From Primula veris (lineage: Eukaryota > Streptophyta > Magnoliopsida > Ericales > Primulaceae): DNA of 64,000 bases. The position numbers were made by a program, and so were the translations under genes. This document shows, one piece after another, positions 7,257 to 57,808 of this stretch; the first letter of the stretch is position 1; every line of letters begins with the position of its first letter. The stretch is from NCBI GenBank assembly GCA_963682055.1, contig OY821740.1, forward strand, positions 17,570,814 through 17,634,813. Reading direction: 5' to 3'. The notes below the pieces were generated by a model that was given only the letters and a program-made list of their open reading frames with translations, was not told the DNA's origin and searched no databases.

Positions 7257-10200
7257 ATGCCAACGGTAGTAATTGTGGGAGGTGGAATTGGAGGGTCGCT
7301 TTTGGCAAAATGTCTTCAAGACCACTGCAAAGTTGTTCTCATTGATCCGTAAGCTTTTTGAAACTTCTATTCAAAAATTTATAATCATTTAAAAAAAAAA
7401 TGTGTCAATGTGGTTTATGACCTTTTAATCTTTATAAAAGTTTCCTTGTTTACTTGTTAGCAGTGCTGTATTTGGTCGGCCAACTTAAAATTTTGGTACT
7501 TGTGAATTTTGACCAGTAAAAAAGCTATAAAGTTTAGGATAAAAGACCACTTTTTTTCCCACTCAAATAAGACATCGTGTAAATTTCAACTGTTCAGGGT
7601 GTTGCTTTAGTTACGATTACGGTGTGTAAGCTTCATTTCGTTTTTTCCACGTAAATTAAGGCACGAAAGACTAGAAGACCATGCTAATAAACCTGAATTT
7701 TTGCTTTAACTATGGATCCCCTCGGTAAGTTGTGATACCAGGTCGAGCCTCCTGACCTAGGCTATTCTTAAAAAAATTGCACATTAAGGTGGAATCATCG
7801 CTCCATAACTCCATTCTAGTTTTGTAGTGCCTCATATGGTCTATCGGGCAGCTTTTCCCGTCATACAGCTTAAATTCTGGGATGACAAAACCGGTTGGGG
7901 TTTCGGTACCGTGTTATTTGCTCGATACACGGTGTTTCCTGGCAAACATTCCATGCTTGCTGGAAGACTTCGTCATGTGTTTGATACTGCGGTGTGTATC
8001 CTCCACCGCCATAATTTGTGTGAATGGGGGCGTAGTGCTCATGTACTCCCCCTGCCTTGTTGTCACCATATCCCCCGCTTTTCGGGACTATGCCGTATGC
8101 ATGTCCGGCCTGGCTACTCTGGAAGCCGGGTCTTGGTGTGAAAGGTTGTGGTGGCATCCTTGATAGCAGTTCCCCTTATTGGAACCTTCCTGCCTCTCGT
8201 TGTCGGTCTGCCACTTCCATGGCTGCCCTGTACGTGGCATCTTCTATTTGCTCGCTTCTTGGGAGAGCTCTTTTTGAGGGTCGGCTGCTTGTTGTGTCAG
8301 CATTCTTATCCCCGCAACTGTCATGGCTGACATGCAAGCTGCTAGCCGAGCTTGAATTTGGACATGATAGCTTTCATCAGTCCGAGATATCACAACTGCA
8401 TTTCCTACCGGTTGTATCATCGGTTAAAATTCCACCGTGGATGTTGTGATTATTTGTGGAGAAATGATTGGTTGTCGAACTGTTTGTTTCTGTGTGTTGG
8501 TAGGTGACATCCCGTATTGGAATGCCCTTGGGTTTGTCGGGCGCTGTTGGGTTTGTCTCGTCTCCTCGACGTAGTTGTCTTTAGACTGGAATTGACTTCT
8601 TCGTTATTGAGTTGGAAACGAGTGACCCTCCCTCTGTGTGAGCTTGAGTTGGCGACGGCCAACTGTTGCCTGGAGCTTGGTCTTGTTGTATTTATTGTGG
8701 GCGCTACACTGGAGCTCTCTCCTCCTCCTCGGAATCGGACGGATTTTCATCTATCAGCCCGTCGATCATTGGAGGTTGGTCTTGAAATTGTGAGTGTTCG
8801 TTAGGGAGGTTGGAGGTGAGTGCTTGGTATCTTTGGTTGATGGCTAGAAGTGCTTCTAGCTCGTCTTGGCGAATGCGTATATCGTTGTTGTTGTTTGGGG
8901 TTGTTCCCACCTCCTCGGGACGATTTTCTTTTAGGGTGGTAACCATTTTGCTCGTCTGGTAAAGTTGTGTGTTCAACTTCGAAAATAGCTGGCACTACAT
9001 GAAGCGTAGTGACGTCGCCATTTGATAAAGCATGGACTTTGGTCGATCAAGTCGTACTTTTCAACAATAGTTATGTAAATGGTTAAAGCAATAATTTGGA
9101 CAAGTAAATATCTTTATTGATTAATTGAATGAATTACAATGTACTTCTATTATAAATCTCAATTATCTAATGCTCGGTGTAACTCTTCGGTCTATGACTT
9201 TGACTCTTTGTGTATACTTTCTAGTGAGATGAAATCTGAAAAGTCTCTGTACTTTTTATGCTTAGAAGTCAGATGATCTCATTGTACTGCTATTTGACTC
9301 TATTTATAGGGGTACGTGCTCCATAAGATGTTGATAAGTGGCGTTTTCATCTGTCAGATCATGAGCTTTTTATGTAGTGGGCTTCGTTAATTAGAGTTAG
9401 TCCAATGAGTAATTACCTTTCCTATTTTATAAAGGAAATGACATTCGTGTCTTTATACCAATTGTGCTCCCCATGTTTAAAGTGATGGATTTCCATGAAA
9501 AATATATGGGTCGGGTTACTACCAAATATCGCTTAACGGGTAGTATTTTCATGTCGTATCACCATCAATTTCCGTCTACTTGCAATCAAAAGTCATCTCA
9601 AACCGGAAATGATTTTTCAAATGGGGATGTTTCATGTTTCATGTTTTAATACCCCTATACTAACAGTACCCAAATTAGGCTAAGAACATTGTATAACTGA
9701 CCAACCCATAATTTTATCTTGTACCTAGATGATGCAAGGATGGTTTTTATCATTCTCAAAGCGAAATATAGTAGTTACAATAGTAGGTTAACACTACCTA
9801 AAATGGGCTAAGAAGATAGATGACACGTAACTTATCCACCCACAATTTTTAATTTATTTGTGAACAGGAAGGAGTACTTGGAAATCATATACGGAGAGTT
9901 GAGGTCAATGGTCGAGCCATCGTTTGCAACCAAATCGGTTATTAGCCATTTCGAGTACATTCCCAAGGTCCGTTTGATCGTTTCAACTGCAGTGAAAGTT
10001 ACAGAAAATGAAGTTTTTACTGCTAATGGCCTAAGTGTTGCATACGATTATCTGGTCATAGCCACTGGTCATCTTCACACCGGTGAACGAACTCGGAGCG
10101 ACAGGCTCAAGCACTATGAAGCAGGTAATTAGTCTAATTATACCCGACCTAAGAAAAATTCCGAAAGACTGAAGAAGCTGAAAGCTGCATTTAATACGAA

Positions 10201-12277
10201 TATTACTAACTGTAATTTGGAGTAAAGGTTCCCTAAACACTTGTAAATCGAAACTTCCGGAATGATTATTAATAGCATAGCAAGTGAAAAAGAAGTATAC
10301 TAGGAAAATCTGCCTTTCCAAATTACGAAATTCCCAGATGCAGTTTTGTATATTATTTAGCAAAAATTAAGTTGGCATGTTCCCACCGCCATCAGTTTCC
10401 TAAGAAAGTCTAGAAACAACAACGGTGCCAAGGTAAATGAGATCTTGTTCAGTTACAGCTTTTAATCTCAGCTTCGTTTCGTTGATTTAAAGCTGGATCG
10501 GATTTGGTTGATTAGCTAAAAAGCTGACTTTTCAGGTTTACTTGCCAGAACAAACTATAATATTAAAGCATGATCTCAAAGTTTTTATATGCTACGACGA
10601 AACAAACTATGAGTTTTACAATTTCTTATCAGGCTTTTCTTTGCTATTTCTGTTTATCCTTCACGTTCTTCCAAACACATAATGGATATTTTCGGGTTAA
10701 GTGACAAAATACCTGATATTGATTGCATATAACTTTAAAAATGTCCTCCTATTTGTGTATCAGGAAACTTATATAATATTTTCTCTAATTGCAGAGTTCC
10801 AGAGGATCAAATCATACAACTCAATACTAATTGTTGGAGGTGGGCCCACTGGTGTCGAGCTAGCCGCCGAAATCTCCACCGATTATCCCGAGAAAAAAAT
10901 CACTCTAGTATCTCGAGGAACGAGATTATTGGAATTCATTGGGGAAAAAGCTAGTAAAAAAACACTAAAATGGCTAATAGCGAAGAACGTTCGTGTCATA
11001 CTGGGACAATACGTAGACTTAACCCCCGTGTCTATAGGCGTATATAAGACATCTGGTGGAGAAACTATCCAAGCGGACGGGGTTTTCAAGTGTCTTGGAT
11101 TGCCTCTGGCCTCAAAATGGCTTAAAGATACAATTTTGGAGAGTCGTTTAGATGATCAAGGAAGGTTAATGGTTGATGGGAATTTAAGGATCAAAGGGTA
11201 CAAGAATGTATTTGCGATTGGAGATATTACTGATATTCCTGTGAGTTGTTTCAATCTCCTGTTTGTTCTGCTTGGTTGCAGCATTTGAGCTCAGTTTTTA
11301 TTCTTTTTTCCCTTCTTAAAGAGTTGGCACTGCATATGCCTGATCAGCTATCAAGCTGAGGGTTTGCGGATTTTTCTTCATTGAAAATGCGAGTATAATT
11401 TTTAAGTTGGATGAACCTACTTTTCTCCGAACCTCTAAATGTCCAGCTTGTTTGCTTAAAAGATGCATTAAAACAAGCATTAAGACTTCTCATATTCGAA
11501 GAACTTGTTCGGTGTTTTGGCTTGTTTTGGTTGTGGCTTAGGGCTCAACTTATTTTAGCTTTTTCCTTATCAGGTGAAGTATTTTGGGTACCGTTGACCA
11601 GCTCAAAAGCTATTTTTTTTGGTTTTCTAGCCTGAGCAAAAAAAAAATCTGGAAGTTTTAAGCTTGATGGCCAACTTTACCGTCTTAATAAGCCACAACT
11701 TATTTGTGTAAAAAGTTGCAACCAAACAAGCCCTTAACTATAACTAGGCTCTAAATTTCAGATGGCTATAATATATATAAATTTTCAATGAGATCATATA
11801 TCAATCCAATTATCATTTATTCTGGAAGCTGGAAAAAAATGTTTTAGGCTCAAATAGAGTTGATTTTTAGTCTTGTTTTGAGATTAGATTTATTCATCGA
11901 AAACAGATTTTGGCTTAAAATTTATCTGCTTGTGTTAAACTGAAAACCACTAATATCATATATATCCAAATTTAGTCGCAGTTTTATCTGATAGTATGTT
12001 AAATTAATTAATTCTACAGGAGCTAAAACAAGGGTTTATAGCACATGAACATGCTAAAGTAGCTGCCAAGAATTTGAAACTGTTAATGTCAGGTACGGAA
12101 GAGCGAAAGTTAGCTACTTACACAGCTGCCAAACCTTTTGCATCTGTATCTCTCGGTAGACACGTGGCTGTCGCACAAATATTGGGTGTGACAACAATAG
12201 GAAGAATACCTGGAAAAATTAAATCGGGGGATATGTTTGTAGGAAAAACAAGGAGGGACTATGGGCTAAAACCTTGA
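7257..12277 (+). CDS. FSP1/AIFM2-like FAD-dependent NAD(P)H oxidoreductase, copy 1 (4 exons, 350 aa)
   Basis: Exons 7257-7348, 9868-10124, 10795-11240 and 12020-12277, all with GT-AG introns; the join keeps frame through 1053 nt. The start is fixed by an in-frame TGA at 7242-7244 just upstream. Residues 3-13 (TVVIVGGGIGG) are the FAD-binding Rossmann motif. DYLVIATGH is the conserved strand before the second domain. ILIVGGGPTGVELA is the NAD(P)H-binding motif, and NVFAIGDITDIP the second FAD contact. Known: this family (plant apoptosis-inducing factor homologs, human FSP1) uses NAD(P)H to reduce quinones at membranes. Unlike copy 2, it has no N-terminal membrane segment, so it is probably soluble or attached some other way. 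Intron 1 (2.5 kb) hosts an LTR element remnant. The substrate is inferred from the family only. Confidence 0.92.
7735..9440 (-). mobile_element. Decayed non-autonomous LTR element with gag remnant in intron 1
   Basis: On the minus strand a TATA box (ctataaatagag, about 9300-9310) lies in an LTR-like segment (about 9440-9010). A gag-like frame follows, starting near 8946 (MVTTLKENRPEE ... MIDGLIDENPSDSEEEE), stopped by TAG near 8709 and continued in fragments to about 7870 (Gly/Tyr/Gln-rich). No protease, RT or integrase is visible, and I did not find a second LTR, so the copy is truncated. It lies antisense to the host gene. Edges are approximate. Confidence 0.5.
11440..11735. repeat. Dispersed GCTTGTTTGG-type element in intron 3 of copy 1
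   Basis: The right end reads gttgcaaccaaacaagccc, the reverse complement of the left end seen in other copies (ggcttgtttggttgcaac). The interior shares phrases such as gaccagctcaaaagct with copies at 21.4, 24.5, 25.4, 32.4 and 62.75 kb. It has no coding sequence and is probably a hAT-like MITE. Confidence 0.5.
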
Positions 12278-19635: not shown

Positions 19636-22600
19636 ATGAAGATCATATCTCCTGAGTTAACTCTCTCTCTCATTGCAATAACTCTCCCACTTATTCTTAT
19701 AGGAATATATACATACATATACAAATCTAAATTAGATAATAAAATGGCCGAGAAAAAGACGGTGGTGGTCGTCGGAGGAGGGATTGCTGGGTCGATATTG
19801 GCTAGACACCTTCAAGATCATGCTAATGTTGTTCTTATTGATCCGTAAGTTATTTGTTTCTTTTTTCCTTATTTAGTTACTACTCCTTAATGTTATTTTA
19901 GGTAAGTTGAGCCTGCTTAATTTAGCCATTTTTTAAAAAAAATACGCATACACTTTTATATTAATTACAATAATATCATAAAAATATAAAAATTAAAAAC
20001 TAATAAAATTACAAAAAATTCTTTTAAATCTTAAACTATGTTTTTTTTTTATCATAACTATACCTATTTTCTATATTTTTATTGCATTACACGCCACACT
20101 GCCACACGATTAGCAGTGTAAAATAAGCTGCCTTGTTTGTGCTTATTGATAGGTAAGTTAATTCTTTGTTTTTCCACTTTTTTTTTCCTTATTTAGTTAG
20201 TATTCTGTAATGTTAATTTACTTTATGGTAAGTTATTGTTAGCGTTAGATAAAATAAGCTGGCTTGTTTGTGACTTAGTGCATGTTTGGCAACAACTTTT
20301 CTTCTTAGCTTTTTTGGGTGCTTGGGTTGTCAACTTTTTTGGCTTTTGGGTCAAAAAAACGTTGAAAAACTCAAAAACAGATAAGCTAGGAAATTGCGCT
20401 TTTTTTTTGCCTTTTCATTTTTGATAAGTTTTTTTTCCTTATTTAGTTAGCAGTACGTAATGTTATTTTGCTTTTATGGTAAGTTACTAAGTTATTATTA
20501 GCGTTAGATTAAATAAGCTGGCTTGTTTGTGATTGAGTGCATGTTTGGAAACAACTTTTCTTCTTAGCTTTTTTGGGTGCTTGACTGCTTGGTATGTATC
20601 TTTTTTAGCTTTTAAAAAACCAGCTTTTGGGTCAAAAAATCTTAGAAAAGCTTAAAAGCAGAGAAGCTAGGAACTAGCGATTTTTTTTTATAGCTTTTTC
20701 ACATTAAATTTTTCAAAATTAAAAATTTCTTATAGAATGTGTTTGTATATCTTTAACTCACATATAAGTTAAAATATGTGACTAATGACTAATGACTTAT
20801 CACTTATCAATAAAAATAAGTTATAAATCACTTATAAGTAAAAAAGTTACAGTGGTGCTACAGACTGCAGCTTTTTTTAAGCAAGTTTTTTTCTCATTGC
20901 TTTTTTAAAAGCAACTTTTTGACCAAAAAATCTGATGCCAAACGACCCTTAGAAAAAAGATGGGTCTATAGTTTCAACCTTTTGGGCCAATGTATTAAAT
21001 AAAGCTATTATTCCTGGTATTATGAATTGTCAAACAGATATACAGCAGCCAAGTAGAATTCAAAACTGGCAACTAAACAAGCATATCGTGTCGTGGGGCC
21101 TAGTTGGAGTTGGTATCTTTTGTCTAGAAAATGGACTTTAGTTTGTTAATAACTTAATATTGATTATAGGAAAGAAAGAAATGAAGTGAAGTCAATCTGC
21201 TACTCCCTAATTTGTTGGGTCAAAGTTCGTAAGAATATTAAAAGTTCAAAACCAAGTTATTGATGTGATCATCTAAAGAACAAATAGCGGTGAAGCATTA
21301 ACTTGTCGTAGATGGTTAGTAGGCTAATCCAGTTATGTTAAAGATACAATTTTGCCTTTGTTTGGTTGCAGCTTTGACAACCAAGCTGGATTATATGTTC
21401 AGATTTAAAAAAAGAACAGATCCATAGAGTTGAATACTTCCAATTCCACCTTTCAGGCAAAGATCATTTTTTTAAGCTGATAAATCAAGTACAAACCAGC
21501 TTGTTTATTAGAAGCTGGATTGCTTCAGGTTGACCAGCTTAAAAGCTGAGCTTCTGGTCTGGAAAAGCTGGAAGGTTTAAGATGGATTAAATTCGCTTTT
21601 TTCTCAAACCCAACAAACCTGTGAAACTAAACAGTACAAATATGGAGTCTTTTATAAGCAGGCTTGTTTGGGACTGAGAAAAAATATGGGTCTATAGTTT
21701 TAACTATATCGGCCAAAGTACCAAAAAAGCTATTACTGTTACCATGAAGTCTCTAACAAATATGCAGCAGCTAAGAAGAGTTTGAAATGCGCAACCAACA
21801 AGCTCATAACGTCGCATACGGGAATGTGTAAATTTTGTGTGGAAAATGGAATTCAGTTTGCTAATAGTGAATACGGTAAAGAAGAAATTAATCGAAGTCA
21901 ATCTGCAAACTTAAAATTTTGAAACTAAGCGATATAAATATCGAGTCCTTATCTAGTAGGAAGAACTTCTACTTGTGACTTGACATTCAACTAGCTAAAT
22001 ACTCACAATATCAAATTTTATAACACTCTTATATTATGGTGCTAATAACAGGAAGGAGTTTATGGAGATACCCTATGGTACATTGAGATCAATAGTTGAA
22101 CCATCTTTTGCCAAAAGAACTGTTATTACCCACACCGATTACTTTCCAAACGGGCGTATTGTCGTTTCTAAGGCAGTTAATATCACTGAAACTGAAGTAG
22201 TAACTGAACAAGGCGATCATATCGCATATGATTATTTGGTTATTGCCACTGGTCATATCCATAGTGGGGCACTGACTAGAGGTGAAAAGCTCCGTAATTA
22301 CGAAGAAGGTAAATATATCACTATTATTGTACATATAAGCAACGCACTATAGCTTCCCAATGAAATTCCATAAATTAATCATTTTTTTTCTGTTTGCATA
22401 AGCACTTTATATTTGCATAAAACAACACCAGTTTTCTATCAGCTTTCCTGCTTTTATATTAAACTAACACTTTTTTCTCCTTCCTCGATGATGTTTAACA
22501 TTACATTGTTTTGTGAATAACTGAAATTTCTTTAACTTCAATAGAGGGAAATTGATTAAGTACGATTGTAGCTTCTTAGGTTATTAAGATTTGGGACCCT

Positions 22601-25030
22601 TAACTCTATTGTAATTTAGTTCTTGTATAAGTACTAGAATTTCGATTTTTGTGAAAAACAATGTTATTTGTCAGCTTAGTACTCAACCCCAATTTCCGTA
22701 GACTGGAATACTTCAGTTCGTTGACAAAATCTTGCAAGTTGAGGACACAAAGGTGAAAATTGTGTAAATTGAGGATAAAAAATTGACGGCTATAATCAAC
22801 CAAAAATGTAGTTTAGTGCACTAGAAAAAGAATATCGATAGTTGAGTGTTCTAAATTGAAATTGCCTCATGCTTCTGTGTATAAAAGATTGATTATCCCA
22901 CAACTTTTTTGTCTTATCTGTGTCTTAAGCTAGTAGTTTCTTATGTTCAATAATTTCTCCCTCTATTTTCGTTGGTTACAGTTCTTAAGCAAATCAATTG
23001 AATTTTTTGAGGTTTAAAAAAGAGTTCAGTTCATCCATCTTAAAGTTTCTAGCTTTTTCAACCCAAAAAAACAAAAAACTTGTTTTGTGCAAATAAAAAA
23101 ACTGAGTTTAAGTTCTGCATCCTAGCCATGCGTTCCATCCTTTCTTTCGTATGTTTTATTGGTTGATCCCAATATTCTTCTAATGTTATAGAGAACAACA
23201 AGCTTAAATCTTCAAGTTCCGTACTAATCGTTGGAGGGGGACCCACCGGGGTAGAGTTAGCTGGCGAAATAGCCACAGATTTTCCTGAAAAAAAAGTAAC
23301 CCTTGTCTCTCGTGGTCCTCGTTTGTTGGAATTCGTCAGTCCCAAAGCTAGCAAAAAAGCACTTGACTGGTTAGTTTCGAAAAAAGTCGAAGTTATATTG
23401 GGACAATCAGTGAATCTGGACTCTGCTAAAGATGGCACTTATGTCACATCTGGTGGAGAAACGATAAAAGCCGATTGCCATTTTAAGTGTATCGGTTTGC
23501 CAATGGCTGGGTCATGGCTTAAAGATACTATTTTGAGAGAGAGTTTGGATAATAAGGGGAGGTTAATGGTTGATGCTAAACTGAGAGTTAAAGGTTTTGA
23601 GAATGTGTTTGCTGTTGGAGATATCACTGATATTCCAGTAAGTTATTTTCCATCATTAATTTTTTTTGTTTGGTATAAATTATAAGAAACTTACGATGAA
23701 TGTTATTTTTAAAAATTGCTCCGAAAGTAGGAGTATGATGCTATGATGTACTAGTACTGGCTATGAGGCTATGGGCTATAGAATAACATTTATACTAATG
23801 TATTTATATGGTACTATAACTCATGAGATGAAAGTTAAGAGTAAATGGACCCAACCCAATTATTTTGAATACCTGTAGAGCTACAAAATAAAATTGGCTC
23901 TGAGGTTTTTCTCATTAACTTATTATAAACACTATGTATACCCCCCCACCTATTTACAACACTTTGTATAATTAGTTATATACGGAACATATAACTTATA
24001 AGATAAAATGGACCCTATGGTTTTAAGGATCTTTCTTTCTTTCTCACTTTATGTGTGAGAGCATCTTCCAAATTTTTATGTCGATATGCATATTGTTGCT
24101 GGTACGTTAAAATCATGATTGATGGATTTGCCTCTTTTCATATCTAGTTGTCTTTGGCTAACAAATGGAACTCTTGAGCAAATTATGTCTGTCAATAAAC
24201 ACATTGCTCTTGAACTATTAAAAACAGGAAAGTTTCCTGGCGGAGTTTCTAAAAAATCTTGCTTGGTATTATTTTTATTTTGGGTAAATATGCTCAATTC
24301 ACCACATTTTATAAGTTTCAGCTAAATCTTTTGCTATTTATTTATCGTATCTAATAAGCTTTAGTTAAATGTTTTGATATTTTTACAATAAAAAAAGCCC
24401 CATTATTGAAGTGGCCTAGAGCCCCCAAAACTCTGGAACCGACACTGCAGGAAACCTTATAACTGTTCTGAAACCGGGTTTTTTTTTGTTCGATTTAATG
24501 GATGAGCGGCAAGTTTCATTGCAGCTGTTAAGCAAATAAGATTGATTTTTAAGTTCAAGAAAAAAGGTACATCCAGCTTAGAGCTTTTAGCTCTTTCCGG
24601 CTAAAAATAAAAAAAATACTGACCTTTTGACCTGATTAAAAAGGCAGGATAAGCTTGAAAGCTGCAACAGACAAGGCCTTAGTTTTTTTCTGTCTACATG
24701 TATATGAGTGTACAATTTTCCGTTCATGAATCTGATATGAACTCTTTATTAAATATGCAGGAGATGAAACAAGGATATTTAGCAAACATGCATTCTGGTG
24801 TTGCTGCAAAAAACATAAAGCTGTTGATATCGGGAGGGGACGAGCGGAAGATGGGGACTTATAAGGCTGCTAAGCCGTTTGCAATAGTTTCACTTGGTAG
24901 AAACGAAGGGGTTGCACAAATTCTTTGTTTAACCATGAGTGGAAAAATTCCTGGGAAAATCAAATCTGGTGACTTGTTTGTGGGCAAGTCAAGAAAGGAA
25001 TATGGGCTCAAAGCTGAGGCACAGGATTGA
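19636..25030 (+). CDS. FSP1/AIFM2-like FAD-dependent NAD(P)H oxidoreductase, copy 2, with N-terminal membrane segment (4 exons, 393 aa)
   Basis: Exons 19636-19844, 22052-22308, 23192-23637 and 24761-25030; exons 2 and 3 have exactly the lengths of copy 1 (257 and 446 nt) and the same phases. Residues about 9-28 form one hydrophobic segment (LSLIAITLPLILIGIYTYIY), then Lys-rich sequence, then the FAD motif TVVVVGGGIAGS. The NAD(P)H motif is VLIVGGGPTGVELAGEI and the second FAD contact NVFAVGDITDIP. Inferred role: NAD(P)H-driven quinone reduction on a membrane, here with its own anchor. Alternative start: Met-37 at 19744 would give a soluble form like copy 1, and the TATA-like motif lying only about 10 bp before the first ATG makes this possible. 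Intron 1 carries tandem duplications and a hAT-like MITE. Confidence 0.92.
19858..20600 (+). repeat. Tandem duplication in intron 1 of copy 2
   Basis: Segments starting near 19860, 20183 and 20432 share ccttatttagtta, taatgtta and ggtaagtt. The last two copies also share ataagctggcttgtttgtg and gtgcatgtttgg, with a period of about 250 bp. Each contains a ggtaagtt sequence resembling a splice donor. Confidence 0.7.
20537..20952. mobile_element. hAT-like MITE in intron 1 of copy 2
   Basis: Left end gtgcatgtttggaaacaac and right end tctgatgccaaacgaccctt are imperfect inverted repeats of the kind found on plant hAT MITEs. No coding sequence inside. The left part is also contained in the tandem duplication just upstream. 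Confidence 0.5.
21355..21680. repeat. Dispersed GCTTGTTTGG-type element in intron 1 of copy 2
   Basis: Begins ctttgtttggttgcagctt, contains ggttgaccagcttaaaagct, and ends near gcaggcttgtttgggac. Same family as the copies at 11.4, 24.5, 25.4, 32.4 and 62.75 kb. Confidence 0.5.
24510..24682. repeat. Dispersed GCTTGTTTGG-type element in intron 3 of copy 2
   Basis: Compact copy with left end cattgcagctgttaagc and right end gaaagctgcaacagacaagg in inverted orientation. Shares gcttagagcttttagct-like sequence with the family. Confidence 0.5.
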
Positions 25031-33923: not shown

Positions 33924-34639
33924 CATGGAAATTTCACTGATTTTGGCTGCATCTTTTTGTTTTTGTCGCTTTTATTTTTAATTGTGAAGTCGTGGGGTGT
34001 TTGTTTTTGTTCAGTTTGGCAGTATCCTATTATTAATGACAACTCTGTATTTAGTTTGAAGAACTTTGAAGTAAAATGACAGTAAAAAAAGTGTCCATCT
34101 ATACTGTATACATTTAGATATGTTGATGGTCTCCAATTTGCGTTTTACGAATCTTTTTTTATTATATATTGTGAAATTTTAGCCTATCGCATTTTAGCTT
34201 ATCGCTGTTCCGGAAGCGTAACCTTTATTCTTCAAGCCGTGCCATGTCATTGCCCTGTATATAATTATATTATTGTATTTGGTTAGCATGATGCCATGAT
34301 TTATGAAAGCATGCTCAGTGATTTAGTCCACCTAATCCTTCAACCTTTGAACTATCTAACGAAAAAACGAATTTAATCCCATAATGGATATAATCATCGA
34401 TAAATTCTCAAAACATATAATGTGTTATGAAATATTATCAAAACATACAACTCAAACAAATTATTCACAAAACATACGATTGACCCAAATATAAAAAAAT
34501 ATATATTTCTTCCTACCTACCAAAAAATTTCTCTCCTCTTTCTCCTCTTTCTTTCTAAATCATCATTTTTTTTCCACAAAATACTACCTTATTTAACGTT
34601 AAAATGACTTCTAAACCGAAAAAAATAAAATTACAACAA

Positions 34640-35460
34640 AAAATAAAAAAAGTTTAAAAAAGTCGAAAACCCGAAAAAACCTAAAAAAATGTTGGAAAAA
34701 CCTTTAAAAAAGTCGGTAACCCGAAAAAATCCAAAAAAATGTTAAAAAATAAAAAAAACCAATAAAAATCCAAATTCACAAAAAAATGAAAAAAGTTCAA
34801 AAAAGTCGAGAATCCGAAAAAACCCAAAAAAGGCTGAAAAACCTTTTGAAAAGTCGAGAACCCGAAAAAACCCAAAAAAGGCTGAAAAACCTTTTGAAAA
34901 GTCGGGAACCCGAAAAAACCCAAAAAATGGTTAAAAAAAGTAAAAAAAAAAAAAACAAAGAAAAATCCAAAATCACAAAAACAATGAAAAAAGTTCACAA
35001 AAATCGAGAACCCGAAAAAACCAAAAAAGTGCTCAAAAAACCTTTAAAAAGTCGGGAACCCGGAAAAACTCTAAAAAAGTGGCAAACAATAAAAAAAAAA
35101 CCAAGAAAAATCCAAATTTACAATAATATATAAAAATAAAGTTCAGAAAAGTCGAGAACCCGAAAAAAGCCCAAAAATATGGTAAAAAACAAAAAAAAAC
35201 AAGAAAAATACAAAATTACAAAAAAAAAATGAAAAAAGTTCTAAAAAGTCGAGAATTCAAAAAAACCCAAAATATGCTGAAAAAACTTTTAAAAAAGTCG
35301 GTAACCGAAAAAACCCAAAAAATTGGTAAAAAAACCCAAAAAATCCAAAATCACAAAAAAATGAAAAAAGTTCAAAAAAGTCGAGAACCCGAAAAAACCC
35401 AAAAAAGGCTGGATAAACCTTTTAAAAAGTCGGGAACCCGAAAAAGGCCAAAAAATGGTT
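34640..35460 (+). repeat. A-rich 48-bp minisatellite
   Basis: Diverged units, clearest at 34800-34920, with a period of 48 bp (gtcgagaacccgaaaaaacc, then ggctgaaaaaccttttgaa). 48 is a multiple of 3, so + reads as a 16-residue Lys/Glu-rich peptide repeat (KSREPEKTQKRLKNLL), but the frame breaks repeatedly and no gene is supported. A second patch of the same unit at about 35610-35760 lies inside the next array. Confidence 0.9.
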
Positions 35461-35464
35461 AAAA

Positions 35465-38080
35465 AAAGTATTGTGTATGTCTGTATTGCGTATTTCCGTA
35501 TTAAAAAACATGTATAAATTGTGTGTTGTGTATGCATGTATTAAATAACATATATAAAAAATGTATTGTGTATGCCCGTATTAAAAACATGTATAAATTA
35601 TATATTGTGTATGCTGAAAAAACTTTTAAAAAAGTCGGTAACAAAAAAAACCCAAAAAATTAGTAAAAAAACCCAAAAAATATCCAAAATCACAAAAAAA
35701 AATGAAAAAAATTCAAAAAAGTCGGGAACCCGAAAAAGGCCAAAAAATGGTTAAAAAAAGTAGTGTGTATGTCTGTATTGCGTATTCCCATATTAAAAAC
35801 ATGTATAAATTGTGTGTTGTGTATGTATGTATTAAATAACATGTATAAATAATGTATTGTGTATGCCCGTATTAAAAAACATGTATAAATTATGTATTGT
35901 GTATGCCTGTTTTAAAGAGCATGTATAAAAAGTATATTGTGTATGAATAATAAGAAAAAAAAACAAAAAAAATGGACAGTGTCAATTGATACATAATGTA
36001 TTGTGCATGACTGTATTAAAGAGCGTGTATAAATAATGTATTGTGTATACCTGTATTAAAAAGCATATATAAAATATGTATTGTGTATGCATGTATTAAA
36101 GAGCATGTATAAATAGTGTAATGTGTATGCCCGTATTAAAAAAACATGTATAAACCGTGTATTGTGTATGTTTGTATTAAATAGCATGTATAAATAATGT
36201 TTTGTGCATGCCTGTATTAAAAAATATATATAAACTGTGTATTGTGTATGCCTGTATTAAAGAGCATGTATAAAATATGTATTGTGTATGCATGTATTAA
36301 AAAGCATGTATAAATGGTGTATTATGTATATCCGTATTAAAAAAACATGTATAAACTGTGTATTGTGTATGTCTGTATTAAAAAGCATGCATAAATAATG
36401 TATTGTGTATGCCCGTATTAAAAAAACATGTATAAAAATTGTGTATTGTGTATGCCTGTATTAAAGAGCATGTATAAAATATGTATTATGTATGACTGTA
36501 TTAAAGAGCTTGTATAAAAAGTGTATTGTGTATGCATGTATTAAAAAACATGTATAACAATGTATTGTGTATGCCTGTATTGCGTATTCCCGTATTAAAA
36601 AATATGTATAAATTATGTGTTGTGTATGCATGTATTAAATAAAATGTATAAATAATGTATTGTGTATGCTCGTATTAAAAAACATGTATAAAATATGTAT
36701 TGTGTATGCATGTATTAAATAACATGTATAAAAAGTGTAGTGTATGAATAATAAGAAAAACACAAAAAATAGACAATGTCAATGGATACAGAATGTATTG
36801 TGTATGGCTATATTAAAGAGCGTGTATAAACAATGTATTGTGTATGCCTGTATTAAAAAACATGTATAAAATATGTATTGTGTATGCCTATATTAAAGAG
36901 CATGTATTAATAGTGTATTATGTATGTCCGTATTAAAAAACATGTATAAACCGTGTATTGTGTATGTCTCTATTAAAGAGCTTGTCTAAATAATGTATTG
37001 TGTATATCCGTATTAAAAAAATATGTATAAACTGTGTATTGTGTATGCCTATATTAAAGAGCATGCATAAAATATGTATTGTGTATGCATGTATTAAAGA
37101 GTATGTATAAATAGTGTATTGTGTATGTTCATATTAAAAAAATGTATAAACTGTGTATTGTGTATGTCTGTATTAAAGAGCATGTATAAATAATGTATTG
37201 TGTATGTCCGTATTAAAAAAACATGTATAAACTGTGTATTGTGTATGCCTGTATTAAAGAACATGTATAAAATATGTGCAATGTATAACAATGTATTGTG
37301 TATTCATGTATTGCGTATTCCCGTATTAAAAAACATGTATAAATTGTGTGTTGTGTATGCATGTATTAAATAACATGTATAAATAATGTATTGTGTATGC
37401 TCGTATTAAAAAATATGTATAAAATATGTATTGTGTATGCCTGTATTAAATAACATGTATAAAAAGTGTATTGTGTATGAATAATAAGAAAAACACAAAA
37501 AATAGACAGTGTTAATAGATACAGAATGTATTGTGTATGATTATATTAAAGAGTGTGTATAAACAATATATTGTGTATGCATGTATTAAAAAACATGTAT
37601 AAAATATGTATTGTGTATGCCTATATTAAAGAGCATGTATAAATAGTGTATTATGTATGTCCATATTAAAAAACAAGTATAAACTGTGTATTGTGTATGT
37701 CTCTATTAAAAAGCATGTCTAAATAATGTATTGTGTATGCTCGTATTAAAAAAATATGTATAAACTGTGTATTGTGTATGCCTGTATTAAAGAGCATGCA
37801 TAAAATATGTATTGTGTATGCGTGTATTAAAGAGTATGTATAAAAAGTGTATTGTGTATGTTCATATTAAAAAACATGTATAAACTGTGTATTGTGTATG
37901 TCTGTATTAAAGAGTATGTATAAATAATGTATTGTGTGTACCCGTATTAAAAAAAACATGTATAAACTGTGTATTGTGTATGTCCGTATTAAAAAAAACA
38001 TGTATAAACTGTGTATTGTGTATAAAATATGTATTGTGTATGACTGTATTAAAAAGCATGTATAAACACTATATTGACAA
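35465..38080 (+). repeat. 40-bp minisatellite, roughly 60 units, with higher-order structure
   Basis: The basic unit is about 40 bp (tgtattgtgtatgcctgta, then ttaaagagcatgtataaa), with units of 38-42 bp. A non-unit marker (gaataataagaaaaa ... acagtgtcaat) recurs at about 35943, 36747 and 37479. A second marker (tgtattgcgtattcc) recurs at about 35480, 35775, 36575 and 37305. These show a higher-order repeat of about 730-800 bp. A few further units are at 38320-38490. No gene. Confidence 0.95.
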
Positions 38081-38539
38081 GTTAATCGGCATTTTTCATA
38101 TCGAGTAATAGAATATGTCAACAACACATCACCTTTATCCAAATTCGGCCAAATATCACAAATTTTATCCACCAATTTTTCAAAACTTATATCGATTTAA
38201 ATTGCAATTATAACCATCTTAAAACTACCAACCGTGACAACATCTAGATTGCACATCATCAAAATATTGCCCATTGCACTACAAAACAACATAAAACAAA
38301 ACACACAAAAGTGTAAATAGATAAACAATGTATTGTGTATGCTTGTATTAAAAAAATGTGTATAAAAAATGTATTGTGTATGCCTGTATTAAAGAACATG
38401 TATAAAACATGTATTATGTATAACTATATTAAAAACATGTATAAAAAATGTATTGCATATGCATGTATTAAAAGAACATGTATAAAAGATGTTATTATTA
38501 AGTATATAAATTTAATTATAGTAATTTTTAAAAAATAAA

Positions 38540-49585: not shown

Positions 49586-50358
49586 AAAACCTCTATAAAT
49601 TAATAATGTCGGGACTGTAGAAATTTATTAATTTAGAGAATTATTAATTAATTGATAAATTAATAATTATTATTTTAAAGAGATTTTATTTATTGGACGA
49701 TTAATGTTCACCGAGCAACAATAACAAAGTAGTATCAACACTGCAAAATTGGTTCGGGTTAATAAAGTTTCAATTAATGCATGAAACCACTATCGAGTAA
49801 AATATTTATGAACTTGAAAAAACGATTGATGGTCTCGATTATCGTAATAAAACGGATGTCAATAGATTGCTAGTTAACAAGTGAAAATGATAGAGGCATC
49901 TTAAAATTTTTTTATGGAAATCGTGTTTGGTAACAATAAAGATGATGACGCTGAAAATGATACCGTATTTTGGAACTATTCATGAGAAAATAAACATTTA
50001 TCGCGTTTATAACTTTTTTTGGTGCAATTCGAAAATGTTATATCAAAACTTTTGGATGCAATTAAAAAAATTAGGAATGCTATTCAAGTAGATTTAAATT
50101 TTAATAAAAATCAAATGAATATAGAGTTCTATTTCGCTAAGTTGTCATAGTAATGTTTGTCGTTTTGAAGAATTATTAATTTATAATTTTATCGGGACCA
50201 ATATTTATATAAAGATTTTTAGAAAATTTATTGTCTTATTAATTTATCGAAATTGGTGATTTTTTACATTGGCCCAAGTCGAAACTGAAAAAAATTAGTA
50301 TTTTAAAAAATTCATTAATTTACCGAGCATTAATTTAGATAAGTTCTATAGTAATACA
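49586..50358. mobile_element. Emigrant/pogo-like element (degenerate)
   Basis: The left end cagtaaaacctctataaatt and following taataatgtcggg match the right end read in reverse (tactatagaacttatctaaatt, gctcggt) as imperfect terminal inverted repeats. The left end resembles the known termini of Emigrant/Lemi1-type pogo elements, which insert at TA. The interior of about 700 bp includes a short coding-like scrap (AIKKIRNAIQVDLNFN, about 50060-50105), but no intact transposase. Confidence 0.55.
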
Positions 50359-51182: not shown

Positions 51183-54100
51183 ATGTTTGGGAGAGCACCA
51201 AAAAAGAGCGATAACACTAAGTATTATGAGGTTTTGGGTGTGCCTAAAACAGCTGCTCAAGATGATCTAAAAAAGGCCTATCGAAAAGCCGCTATTAAGA
51301 ATCATCCCGATAAGGGTGGTGATCCCGAGAAGGTTATTTTTATATCTGTCTTGTTAATTGGTTTATGATTGAAGACTTGTTATTAGTTGACTTGTGTTTT
51401 TATGTTGGTTGAATTGTTAATTAGCTTATTTGAATTTATAATTCACTGTTGATTGATATCTAAGTAGCAAAAAGGTGTGTCTTTTGAGACTGTATCGGGG
51501 CTAAAAGCGGTGATCCCGAGAAGTTTTTTTTATCTATCTTATAAATTGGTTTATGATTGAAGACTCGTAATTAGTTTAGTTATGTTTTTATGTTAGTTGA
51601 ATTGTTAATTAGCTTATTTGAATTGATAATTCACTGTTGATTGATATCTAAGTAGCAAAAAGGCGTATCTTGTGAGATCGTATTGGCACGTTAATTTAGA
51701 AGGGTACTAAAGCAAGGGAAGAATGTAGGGAAAAAACTATATCTAAAATTAGCAATTTTAAATGTGAGATTAAAGATTGGACATGTTTGAGACCAAGGAA
51801 TAGGACTGTTAGTTACCTGTTGTAATGATGTTATTTGGTTAGAGTTTGTGTAGGTATTAGAAGTGAACTGATCTTTAGCTGTTATTTTGACTAAAGATGC
51901 TACCTTTTTTTGATGGGTTGGTATGTGTTAATGAAATACCGATTTTAAGAATCACCCCGATAAAGGCGGGGTGATTATGAAAAGGTTTTTATCTCTTTTA
52001 TTAATGGGTTTATAATTAAAGACTTGTAGTTAGTGAAGTTGTGTTTTTCTGTTGGTTGAGTTGATAATTAGCTTATTTGTTGACTCAATATTGGAATAAA
52101 GTTTACTATTTTTTTCGACTAATTCACTGTTGATTTATATCTAAGTAGCAAAAAGGTGTCTTTTGAGACTGTATTGGTACTAAAGACGGTGATCCGGAGA
52201 ATGTTTTTATCTCTCTTAATTGGTTTAGTTGTGTTTTTCTGTTGGTTAAATAGATAATTAACTTATTTGTTGACTCGGTATTGGAATAAAGTTTACTATT
52301 CCTTTCGACTAATTTACTGTTGATTGATATCTAAGTAGCAAAAAGGTGTCTTTTAAGACTGTATTGGTACTAAAGGCAGGGATCCCGAGAAGGTTTTTAT
52401 TCGTCTTATTAATTGGTTTATAATTAAAGACACGTTTAGTTTAGTTGTGTTTTTTCTGTTGGTTGAATTGATAATTATGTTATTAGTTTATGGTTTGTGT
52501 AGGTAGGTGATCTGATCTTTAGCTGTTATTTTGATTAAAAGTGCTACCTTTTTTTGATGGGGTTGTATGTGTTAATGCTATACTGATTTTAATGGTACTA
52601 TTGATTTCAAGAATCACTCCAATAAAGGCAGTGATCACAAGAAGGTTTTTCTCTCTCTTATGAATCGGTTTATGATTAAAGACTCGTTATTAGTTTAGTT
52701 ATGTTTTTCTGTTGTTTGAATTGATAATTATGTTGTTTGAATAAAGTCTACTATTGTTTTTTACTAATTCACTGCTGATTGATATCTAAGAGTAACATGA
52801 ATGTGTCTTGTGAGACCGTATCGGTATGTTAATTTAGAGGGGTACTAAAGCAAGGAAGAATGTAGGAAAACTTTAAATTAGCGAATTCTAAATGTGAGAT
52901 TAAAGACTCGTTATTAGTTTAGTTGTGTTTTTCTGTTGGTTGAATTGATGGTTAGTTTTTTGTCGACTCTTTATTGGAATAAAGTTCACTATTGTTTTCG
53001 ACTAATTCACTGTTGATTGATATCTAATAAGTAGCAAAAAGGCGTCTTTTGACTGTATTGGTTCTAAAGGCGGTGATCCCGATAAGGTTCTTATCTGTCT
53101 TATAACTTATTAATTGGCTTATAATTGAAGAGTTCTAATTAGTAGTTTAGTTGTGTTTTAGTGTTGGTTGAATGTATTATTATATTATTAGTTTACAGTT
53201 TGCGTAGGTATTAGAGGTGAACTGAATGTTATTTTGATTAGAAGTCCTACCTTTTTTGATGGATTAGCACGTGTTAATGCTAGACTGATTTTACTGGTAC
53301 TATTGATTTTAAATATCACCCCGATAAAGGCGGTGATCCCGAGAAGGTTTTTATTTCTCTGATTGAAATTGTTTTATAATTAAAGACTCATGATTAGTTT
53401 TCTGTTGGTTGAATTGATATTTAGCTTATTTGTTGACTCTTTATTGGAATAAAGTTTATTGTTTTCCACTACTTCACTGTTGATTGATATCTAAGTAGCA
53501 AAAAACATGTGCCGTGTGAGACTGTATTGGCATTTTAATTTAGAGGGGTACTAAAGCAAGAGAAGAATGTATCGGGAAAAAATTATATTTAAAAATAGCA
53601 AATTCTAAATATACAATTAAAAACGGGATATGTTTGAAAGTAAGGAACCAAATATGTTATAAAAAACCGTAAGGATTGGACAGGACTGCTAGTTTCCTGT
53701 AGTAATGATGCTTTTAGTTTACAGTTTGCGTAGTTATTAGAGGTGAATTGATCTTTAGCTGTTATCTTGATTAAAGGTGCTACCTTTTTACTATGGGTTA
53801 GTATGTCTTAATTCGTTTACAATTAAAGACTCGTAATTAATTTAGTTGTGTTTTTCTGTTGGTTGAATTGATAATTAGCTTATTTATTGACTCTTTATTG
53901 GAATAAATTTCACTATTATTTTCCATTAATTCACCGTTGATTGATATCTAAGTAGTAAAAAGGTGTGTCTTGTGAGACCGTGTGGGTACATTAGTTTAGA
54001 GGGGTTTTAAAGCAAGAGAAGAATGAAGGAAAAAAAAACATTTTTAAAAATAGCGAATTGTAAATATGAGATTAAAGATAGGATATGTTATATGTTTGAG

Positions 54101-57100
54101 GCTAAGGAACCAAATATGTTATGATTAAAAACATAAGGATCGAACAGGACTGTTAGTTATTTGTAGTAATGATGTTATTAGTTTATAGTTTGTGTATATT
54201 ATTAGAGGTCAACTGATCTGTAACTGTTATTTTGATCAAAGGTGCTACCTTTTTCCGATGGGCGAGCATGTGTTAGTGCTATACTAATTTTATTAGAGGT
54301 CAACTGAATGTTTTTTTCTAATTCACTATTAGTTGGAGTTTTTACGATATAAAGATGGATCTTTAGTTGTTTGTTTGATTAAATGAGTTATGGTTTCGGG
54401 AGGGTTATATGTGTTAGTTCTATAGATGAGATATGTACTTGTTGTTGGTGTGTTTGTTGATTTTCTTATTTATCACTGTCAACATGACCATGTAATTGAG
54501 GAGTTGGCCTTGAGATGATTTCTTCTGTCCATGCTTAATATGAGTAAACATGATTATTGCTTATCATTTGGTGACAGACTCCAAAGATTTGTAATTTTTA
54601 CCTTTTTTGTAGTCCAACCTAGTTTAATCACGTTGTTCCAAATGCCTGTTTAATGTCCAGAGAAACTAGGCTATTTTGTTTAGCCATTTTGTGTGTCAGT
54701 GTGTGCAAGTACAGACCTTACTTGTTCTGAATTTTGTTCCAATAGGATGTATCTTCCCCGGTTAAAGAGACGTGTGGAAGTACAGAACTGATTTGCACTT
54801 TTGAAAAGCCAGTTGTGTGTAATGATATATGTTTTTTGAATATAACTTTTTTAAATCATGATTTTTTGAAATAATAGGAATCATCTATAGAAATAATTTA
54901 TAGAAGGGCTTCATAGTTGATTTTTCTAGAGTGCACTGTGTTCTTTCAATCTGTGGAATCATGGGCTTAAGTGCTGTGCTTTACTGCTTTGTATAGCTTT
55001 TCAAATTATTGGAATCTTGTACTTAGGTACTGGTCTAAAAGAGCTCCCGTAGCTGACCGTATTTAATCTTGTTTCTCAGTTTAAGGAGTTGGCTCAAGCT
55101 TATGAGGTCCTGAGTGATCCTGAGAAACGTGAGATATATGATCAATACGGTGAGGATGCTCTCAAAGAAGGAATGGGCGGTGGTGGAGGTGGCCATGACC
55201 CCTTCGACATCTTTTCATCGTTTTTCGGTGGTGGCGGCAATCCCTTTGGTGGTAAGGATATGTTCACAATGGCTTGTTAAAAAAATAAAATTTCCCCACT
55301 ATCATATATTCCCCCCGCTTATTTGAATAATGCAACTGATTTTGATGCATTTGAATTTATATATTTTTTTTGCCAGGTGGCGGAAGCAGCAGAGGCCGCA
55401 GGCAAAGAAGAGGAGAGGATGTAGTTCATTCTCTCAAGGTCTCTTTGGAAGACTTGTACAATGGAACATCTAAGAAGCTTTCACTGTCTCGCAATGTTCT
55501 TTGCAAAAAGTGCAAAGGGTAATTCTCTTTATATCCATTTCAACCTTAAACATTCATAATCTCGGCTTCATATAAAAATGAACATTAAGTACATAAAATG
55601 TTAATACCTACAGCTTTGTTAATTTTTGCATTCATTGTAGCATAAGCAAGCTATTTTTGCATCAATTCATTTATATGTTCATAAATTGAATCATTTTGTG
55701 TAAACATAAAATACCATGCGTAATTCATATTAACAACAAACAATTACCTTATAGTATCATACACATACAAAATTTGAAAAGGGTAATCATTTTTGTAAAA
55801 CTGTAATAGAGATCCCATGGAAAAAAACAAGAAGAACCCTAAAGTTCACATCTTTTGTGCTTTGACGTATTGTTGTGCTTTGAGTGAAGCTCTACATTTT
55901 TCTTGCTATTTGTAGTAAAGAGAGTAATTCAGTGTTCTGTTAATTTTTTTGAACATAGCATATGGAACTAAAGTACTGTATTCCATGTTGATTTTTGCAG
56001 TAAGGGATCAAAATCTGGTGCATCAATGACATGTGCAGGGTGCCAAGGGTCTGGAATGAAAGTAAGTATCAGGCATTTGGGACCGTCTATGATTCAACAA
56101 ATGCAGCATCCTTGTAATGAATGTAAGGGTACCGGAGAAACGATTAACGACAAGGATAGGTGCCCACAATGTAAGGGTGATAAGGTTGCCGGGGAAAAGA
56201 AAGTACTCGAAGTACACGTTGAAAAGGGTATGCAAAATGGACAGAAAATCACTTTTCAAGGAGAGGCTGATGAAGCCGTAAGTATATATAGTTTCTTATA
56301 TATATCAACTATATGTTTGATTCCTGGTTATTTACCTTCCATACACTCAAATTTTCTTCCCCTAAACTAGCAATATTTTTCTTTGTATATCAGCCTACAT
56401 ATTTTTCTTTTGCCTTTTGCAACATAGCTATTAATAAAAGATGATAAAGTAGTCTACAAAGTACACTCTGAAAGACTATCAAATACTTTATGTAATATTT
56501 GGTTTTTGTTATTAATTAATTACAAATACCCAACTTATGGTTTTATTTGTGTTACTTTTAAGTCTATATGTACTTCAAATTCGGGTTCTTTACCTTTTCA
56601 TACACCAACCAATCATGTTTTTTTGTTGTGATTATTGTGCTTTTAACACCTACGAAAAAATAAAAGTATATACCAATCTAATCATTTTATGATGAAAATA
56701 TACAGAACTGCAATTGACATGTTCAGTGAATTTATGTAGAATACCAATCTAATCATATTCTGATGAAAGTATACAGAACTTTAATTAACATGTTCAGTGA
56801 ACTTGTCTTATATGTGTGTGTTTCTTGTTTTCCGGCAGCCTGATACTGTTACTGGAGATATAGTGTTTGTTCTACAGCAGAAGGAACACCCAAAGTTTAA
56901 GAGAAAGGGAGATGACCTCTTTGTCGAACACACCTTGTCCCTCACCGAAGCCCTATGTGGGTTCCAATTCATCCTTACTCATCTTGATAATAGGCAGCTG
57001 CTCATTAAATCCCAACCTGGTGAAGTTGTGAAGCCAGGTAAGTTCTCATAGGAATATTTTATACATAAATCTTAAACGATTCGAGTATTGAACCATAAAG

Positions 57101-57808
57101 TGACTTATTTTCTCGTCGTCCCATTGTTTATTCTGTCTGTTTCCCTTTTCATGTTTGCTTTCATCTTTTAAACTGACAACGCCTTATAGTTTTAAACTTA
57201 TCATGCTATATGCTTTTATGCTAAAACCAATGATGGTTATTTAATTTATTATTATTGTTACAAAATCTAAACGAGATAATAGATGGGAAGACAAAACTTT
57301 AGTTATGTGTATGTACATAGTTTCTTTGGCAGTTTTTGATTGATAAACAAACAGTGTGAAATTGTTAGAAAGTTGTCACTCGAAATTACTCTCATGGCTG
57401 CTTCATTATGTATGTCAACTTTTTTTTCCTGATGAAATATGAATGTCTCATTACCCAACATTATTTGCTAATGTTGCAGACTCATTTAAGGCGGTTAATG
57501 ACGAGGGCATGCCAAAACACCAGAGGCCTTTCATGAGGGGGAAACTATACATACATTTCACCGTTGACTTCCCAGAGTCTCTCACTCCTGACCAAAGCAA
57601 GGCCCTAGAAGCCGTGCTTCCCCCTAAGACGAGCACACAGATGAGCGAAATGGAGCTGGATGAGTGCGAGGAAACGACACTACACGATGTCAACATCGAG
57701 GATGAGATGCGTAGGAAACAACATCAGGCACAACAAGAGGCTTATGACGAGGACGATGATGATATGCACGGTGGTGGGGCGCAAAGGGTGCAGTGTGCTC
57801 AACAGTAA
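51183..57808 (+). CDS. Type-A DnaJ/HSP40 co-chaperone, J2/J3-like, with farnesylation box (6 exons, 422 aa)
   Basis: Exons 51183-51332, 55080-55251, 55377-55518, 56001-56277, 56839-57037 and 57480-57808; 1269 nt in frame. The J domain (about 13-75, [12 protein letters not shown]) has the HPD motif needed to stimulate HSP70 ATPase; it is split by intron 1 after GGDPEK. A Gly/Phe region follows (GMGGGGGG ... NPFGG). The zinc-finger domain has four motifs ([32 protein letters not shown]). Then come the two substrate-binding beta domains and an acidic tail. The C-terminus CAQQ is a CaaX box, as in Arabidopsis J2/J3, which are farnesylated. It acts with cytosolic HSP70 in folding and stress responses. 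No break seen; length is close to the 420 aa of J3. Intron 1 is exceptionally repeat-rich. Confidence 0.97.
51290..54010 (+). repeat. Array of decayed exon-1 ends in DnaJ intron 1
   Basis: The last bases of exon 1 plus the donor (gataagggtggtgatcccga ... gaaggtta) recur in decayed form at about 51505, 51945, 52175, 52373, 52605, 53067 and 53310, several keeping gatcccgagaagg-ttttta. A second landmark, gttgattgatatctaagtag, recurs at about 51448, 51636, 52126 (variant), 52319, 52772, 53009, 53480 and 53936. Spacing is about 190-235 or about 455-490 bp, so the intron grew by tandem duplication of a module that included the exon 1-intron 1 junction. Confidence 0.85.

Follow-up and report, generated by a model that had tools for sequence, protein, structure and literature searches.

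How did the first intron of a plant DnaJ gene come to be filled with copies of the end of its own first exon, and do these copies influence how the gene is spliced? We addressed this question in Primula veris using 64,000 nucleotides of contig OY821740.1 (assembly GCA_963682055.1, positions 17,570,814 to 17,634,813; hereafter the window). The best reading of our results, to which we give a probability of roughly 85%, is a founder tandem duplication across the exon–intron boundary that would have been amplified by unequal exchange and would since have decayed neutrally.

The DnaJ gene and the exon-end copies in its first intron

The gene model contains six exons, and the joined product (422 aa) presents the J domain (PF00226), the central zinc-finger domain (PF00684) and the C-terminal domain (PF01556), all above cut-offs; it is predicted to be a type I DnaJ protein.

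51183-51332, + strand: DnaJ exon 1, from ATG, ending in the phase 0 donor GAGAAG/GTTATT
51333-55079, + strand: intron 1 (3747 bp, GT...AG)
55080-55251, 55377-55518, 56001-56277, 56839-57037 and 57480-57808, + strand: DnaJ exons 2-6

An earlier description made from the letters alone (the sequence-only reading) had put the donor at 51332, which is the last exon base; the first intron base is 51333. The remaining four introns measure 125, 482, 561 and 442 bp, and the gene model needs no extra intron. Intron 4 (56278-56838) contains a small repeat of its own, a 71-bp duplicate at 56670-56801 (1.9 copies, 90%).

We searched for copies of the exon 1/intron 1 junction with a 28-bp probe spanning it (51311-51338). 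Seven further matches were found, with 19-25 of 28 identities, starting at 51502, 51963, 52181, 52371, 52623, 53065 and 53325. Elsewhere in the 64-kb window both strands stayed below 18/28, and 20 first-order Markov shuffles of the intron, scanned on one strand, each gave a best match of 15-18 of 28. The weakest copy (51963, 19/28) barely exceeds this control, yet the repeat unit in which it lies matches over 236 columns. The sequence-only reading had reported at least seven decayed copies of the exon end, from HPD to GGDPEK; the seven found here all lie inside its interval, 51290-54010, and each of the donor places that it named (51521, 52390, 53085 and 53347) falls on a copy. The distance from one exon-end copy to the next is about 190-260 or 440-460 bp, close to the values of about 190-235 and about 460 bp that it gave.

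Self-comparison of the intron confirmed the array: 3,106 of its 3,747 bp (83%) match another part of the same intron, and the table of direct repeats lists many more shared blocks. The array is therefore larger than first described, and the earlier account of the intron repeats was too modest.

One 543-bp unit accounts for the array

To describe the array as a whole, we aligned it to an iterated consensus, the alignment being allowed to jump within the consensus unit; the iteration converged. One 543-bp unit tiles 51295-54307 almost fully, and the segments up to 54289 present 89-98% identity to its consensus. We grouped these segments by eye into ten units, listed below with the consensus columns that each covers.

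51295-51332, + strand: true exon-end block, columns 1-38
51295-51498, + strand: unit u1, columns 1-133 and 174-233
51502-51944, + strand: u2, columns 17-137, 174-348 and 383-525; exon-end copy at 51502
51945-52180, + strand: u3, columns 1-236; exon-end copy at 51945
52181-52370, + strand: u4, columns 17-54 and 83-236; exon-end copy at 52181
52371-52606, + strand: u5, columns 17-123 and 409-543; exon-end copy at 52371
52609-52898, + strand: u6, columns 3-316; exon-end copy at 52609
52899-53062, + strand: u7, columns 69-234; no exon-end block
53065-53308, + strand: u8, columns 17-124 and 412-543; exon-end copy at 53065
53309-53806, + strand: u9, the longest copy, columns 1-507; exon-end copy at 53309
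53808-54289, + strand: u10, columns 55-335 and 329-525; no exon-end block
54290-54471, + strand: four degraded remnants, 18-67 bp long and 78-94% identical, that form the decayed 3' edge

The last 38 bp of exon 1 constitute columns 1-38 of the unit. This block is found in eight of the ten units: the true exon end in u1 and seven copies in u2-u6, u8 and u9, with u7 and u10 lacking it. All 38 columns are retained only in the copies of u3 and u9; the block begins at column 17 in u2, u4, u5 and u8, and at column 3 in u6. The sequence-only reading had also mentioned a second landmark shared by the copies, which probably corresponds to the block around GTTGATTGATATCTAAGTAG (columns 183-202).

The left edge of the homology lies near 51295, inside exon 1. 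Over the 40 bp before each of three exon-end copies, similarity to the 40 bp preceding 51295 is at the level of shuffled sequence (26%, 36% and 58% of 500 shuffles score as well), and a single local alignment extends 12 bp further left, to 51283. At the other edge, one remnant (54358-54424) matches 52514-52582 (E = 2.7e-7), and three pieces of 24-26 bp that the jump alignment placed at 54551-54700 were taken as chance matches. In an nhmmer search of the window with the unit model, all 12 matches fell on the + strand and inside 51297-54288, so that no copy of the unit was found in the rest of the 64 kb beyond the end of exon 1 and intron 1. An exact 32-bp pattern of the unit gave 0 matches in a collection of viral contigs, which is not expected to contain plants. 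The array consists of head-to-tail copies within one gene, including exonic sequence of that gene, and as such is an internal tandem gene duplication.

Junctions suggest alternating duplication and deletion

The junctions between unit segments recur. A break at column 233-236 is followed by column 17 in four places, one at column 123/124 by column 409/412 in two, and u1 and u2 both lack columns 134/138-173. Junctions common to several units probably each arose once and were then duplicated, which suggests that deletion and re-duplication alternated. Short identical stretches, identified by eye, are present at three kinds of junction: TTAA (525 to 1), ATTAAAGA (316 to 69) and TTAAT (507 to 55), as expected of slippage or end joining. 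For the break seen most often (233-236 to 17), no clear match of this kind lies at the break point, which weighs against our best reading. At the 51944/51945 boundary, intron sequence ending in CTGATT joins TTAAGAATC; because the consensus intron also continues with TTAA there, the founder event may have broken at TTAA. The boundaries at 52606 and 53308, the two others that are full, include about 18 additional bp.

The units are considerably diverged from one another. In the 41 pairs (of 45) that share 100 sites or more, the median K2P distance is 0.152 (range 0.098-0.251); this median would place the array at very roughly 11-15 million years under assumed substitution rates. Distances of this size are probably too large for duplicated reads, which argues against an assembly artefact. 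The tree of the units presents short inner and long outer branches, with an inner support of 0.83 or less. Unit u2 does not carry the changes of the true exon at the columns that it covers, yet it shares with u1 the deletion and several intron substitutions; this mismatch of exon end and intron part weighs against our best reading and calls for an exchange between the two.

These observations lend good support to the stepwise tandem duplication that had been proposed for this intron: one 543-bp unit is arranged head to tail, with deletion junctions common to several units and no copies elsewhere in the window. The founder would have been a DNA-level tandem duplication of about 525 bp, running from the TTAA inside exon 1 (51295) into the intron. 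Because the unit spans the exon/intron boundary, each extra copy would have added a 38-bp exon end and donor-proximal intron sequence to the intron, while the first copy would have stayed in register and remained the real exon end. Unequal exchange between copies may then have enlarged the array, and within-unit deletions, copied in turn, would have produced the observed spacings. The ten units would since have decayed independently, the intron copies being neutral passengers that are presumably spliced out with the intron as a whole.

The exon-end copies diverge like the surrounding intron

Relative to the consensus, the exon-end copies are changed at 18 of 200 sites and the adjoining intron block at 110 of 1404 (P = 0.58); the remaining intron part of the units is changed at 94 of 1139. 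Four of the 18 copy changes lie in u3, where the block has two extra bases and aligns poorly; with u3 set aside, 10 of 132 sites are changed in columns 17-38. Thirteen of the 18 changes in the copies are non-synonymous against none of three in the true exon (P = 0.042), so that all differences of the true exon from the consensus are synonymous, three changes only. For comparison, 20 of the 108 possible single changes in the exon-end block are synonymous. These results suggest that the copies behave as non-coding DNA, since they diverge at the rate of the intron and mostly non-synonymously. We rejected the possibility that they are maintained as coding micro-exons on the same grounds.

One stretch of the unit departs from this pattern. 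Columns 183-202 (GTTGATTGATATCTAAGTAG, for instance at 51448-51467) form the least diverged stretch of 20 columns: 2 of 159 cells are mismatched, against 8.0% overall. A permutation over the 208 columns that six or more units cover, made for one window size, gave P = 0.036. Pure neutral decay does not predict this conservation, which counts against our best explanation.

Could the array act on splicing or expression?

We then considered whether the array might work in splicing, with cryptic or poison exons, or competition for U1 with a weak true donor, lowering the amount of full-length DnaJ mRNA. Donors were scored with an approximate donor matrix, and U1 pairing energies were computed separately. 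The true donor GAGAAG/GTTATT is indeed weak (2.07 on the matrix, -4.1 in U1 pairing), since 11 of the 316 other intron GT sites scanned match or beat it on that matrix. Five copies keep AAG/GT and tie with it in U1 pairing (-4.1), but score 0.16-0.48 on the matrix. The two other copies score -3.55 and -3.67; the one at 52203 keeps GT without AAG and the one at 51523 has slipped. The best intron donors on the matrix (AAAAAG/GTGTGT at 51475 and 53963; 5.77) belong to another part of the repeat unit, the former being located 142 bp downstream of the true donor, and several intron sites pair better with U1 than the true donor does (e.g., 52503 at -11.0). The proposal that the exon-end copies serve as decoy donors thus appears weak: on the matrix every one of the seven scores lower than the true donor, and the copies present no sign of constraint.

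The least diverged stretch of the unit ends in an acceptor-like TAG. Scanning from exact TAAGTAG motifs to six of the seven copy donors (all but 52203), we identified three candidate cryptic exons of 52-55 nt.

52339-52392: candidate cryptic exon with a stop in phase 0
53035-53086: candidate cryptic exon with a stop in phase 0
51468-51522: candidate cryptic exon of 55 nt that would shift the frame

These candidates, the weak true donor, the five copies that equal it in U1 pairing and the conserved acceptor-like stretch speak for a role in splicing. Such a role nevertheless appears improbable to us: the exon-end copies decay as fast as the intron around them, the AAG/GT context is gone in two of the seven, and none of the seven reaches the matrix score of the true donor. 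A more specific version, in which the array would be anchored on the donor and the output of J protein would depend on copy number through cryptic or poison exons behind the weak donor, is in our view unlikely too. Under this version each exchange could re-create the exon/intron boundary, because the unit includes the true exon end.

Effects on expression at another level seem still less plausible. The unit might carry signals of intron-mediated enhancement (IME) near the promoter, its amplification having raised expression; this would fit a first intron close to the start codon and a little-diverged element that about eight of the ten units contain. TTTCGA, one of the newer candidate IME motifs named in PMC8157754, is present once in the unit consensus, and intron 1 contains it three times. 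However, the unit consensus contains neither of the two older motifs that this paper names, CGATT and TTNGATYTG; on the sense strand of the 3747-bp intron, the former was found once and the latter not at all. We did not retain these older motifs as the signal of the array, judging them infrequent from the raw counts in this intron. We regard enhancement as very improbable. Finally, a transposon or an introner-like element that captured the exon end is scarcely credible. Nothing beyond the repetition itself was found in its favor, whereas the copies all lie head to tail in one orientation, the complete ones start with the DnaJ exon end, and the confinement of the unit to this locus within the 64-kb window led us to reject a transposon origin. 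Founder duplication, unequal exchange and neutral decay remain our preferred reading of the array.

Repeats and genes in the rest of the window

We compared the self-repeated length of 31 tiles of 3,747 bp across the window. The tiles that overlap the array most, starting at 50001 and 52001, contain 2,469 and 2,441 bp of self-repeated sequence; those starting at 34001 and 36001 contain 3,135 and 2,543 bp and hold short-period arrays, while the other 27 tiles contain at most 1,156 bp. Intron 1 is exceptional, yet it is not the sole repetitive place in the window, since other tiles are also highly repeated. Large arrays of units of about 40 bp (TGTATTGTGTATGCC...; about 50 copies, with higher-order periods) occupy 35774-38498, and an A-rich array with periods of 48, 100, 132, 150 and 197 bp and open frames of 111-126 aa lies at 34613-35466. 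Similar frames are present in two places, 9824-11288 and 21999-23685, perhaps a duplicated gene, and look like an oxidoreductase of the AIF/FSP1 type. The open frame at 1390-2205 resembles a Ty3-type retroelement integrase. A glutaredoxin-family protein is encoded in the neighborhood of the DnaJ gene; in a tree with 120 of its 929 matches it groups with Escallonia at a support of 0.14, next to an Asteraceae group (0.86), which places the host only roughly.

Relation to known intragenic duplications

Tandem duplication within genes, including exon and splice-site sequence, has been reviewed as a mechanism of intron gain (PMC3443670). The DnaJ array resembles the cases described there in that exonic and splice-site sequence is included in the tandem duplication; it differs from them in that the copies lie inside an existing intron, with no sign of a new intron in the gene model, and in that there are seven further exon-end copies rather than one duplication. 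In potato (PMC4974935), the duplicated segment of an RdRp gene reaches from intron 1 across the start of exon 2, with the gain of a new intron. This is likewise a plant gene with a duplicated segment across an intron/exon boundary, but in DnaJ it was the donor side of exon 1 that was copied, many times over, and the coding sequence stayed unchanged. The 24-bp exonic tandem repeats with AGGT of fission yeast (Zhu and Niu 2013, as cited in PMC4974935) also comprise multiple tandem copies of a donor-like AGGT segment. Their unit is short and exonic, with introns reported across the repeats, whereas the DnaJ unit measures about 540 bp and is mainly intronic. Partial duplications are also reported for plant MSH1 genes (PMC10487979). 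None of the matches listed from the open-licence literature, in their titles and the starts of their abstracts, described a multi-copy array anchored on a donor site.

The DnaJ array is an unusually extended and striking case of a known phenomenon, internal tandem gene duplication. It clearly records, in a natural gene, how an intron grew from its donor side, with the exon-end copies lying beside the original, and it supplies an internal clock as well as a built-in comparison of coding constraint with neutral decay. If copy number varies among individuals, the locus would constitute a natural experiment on competing donor sites.
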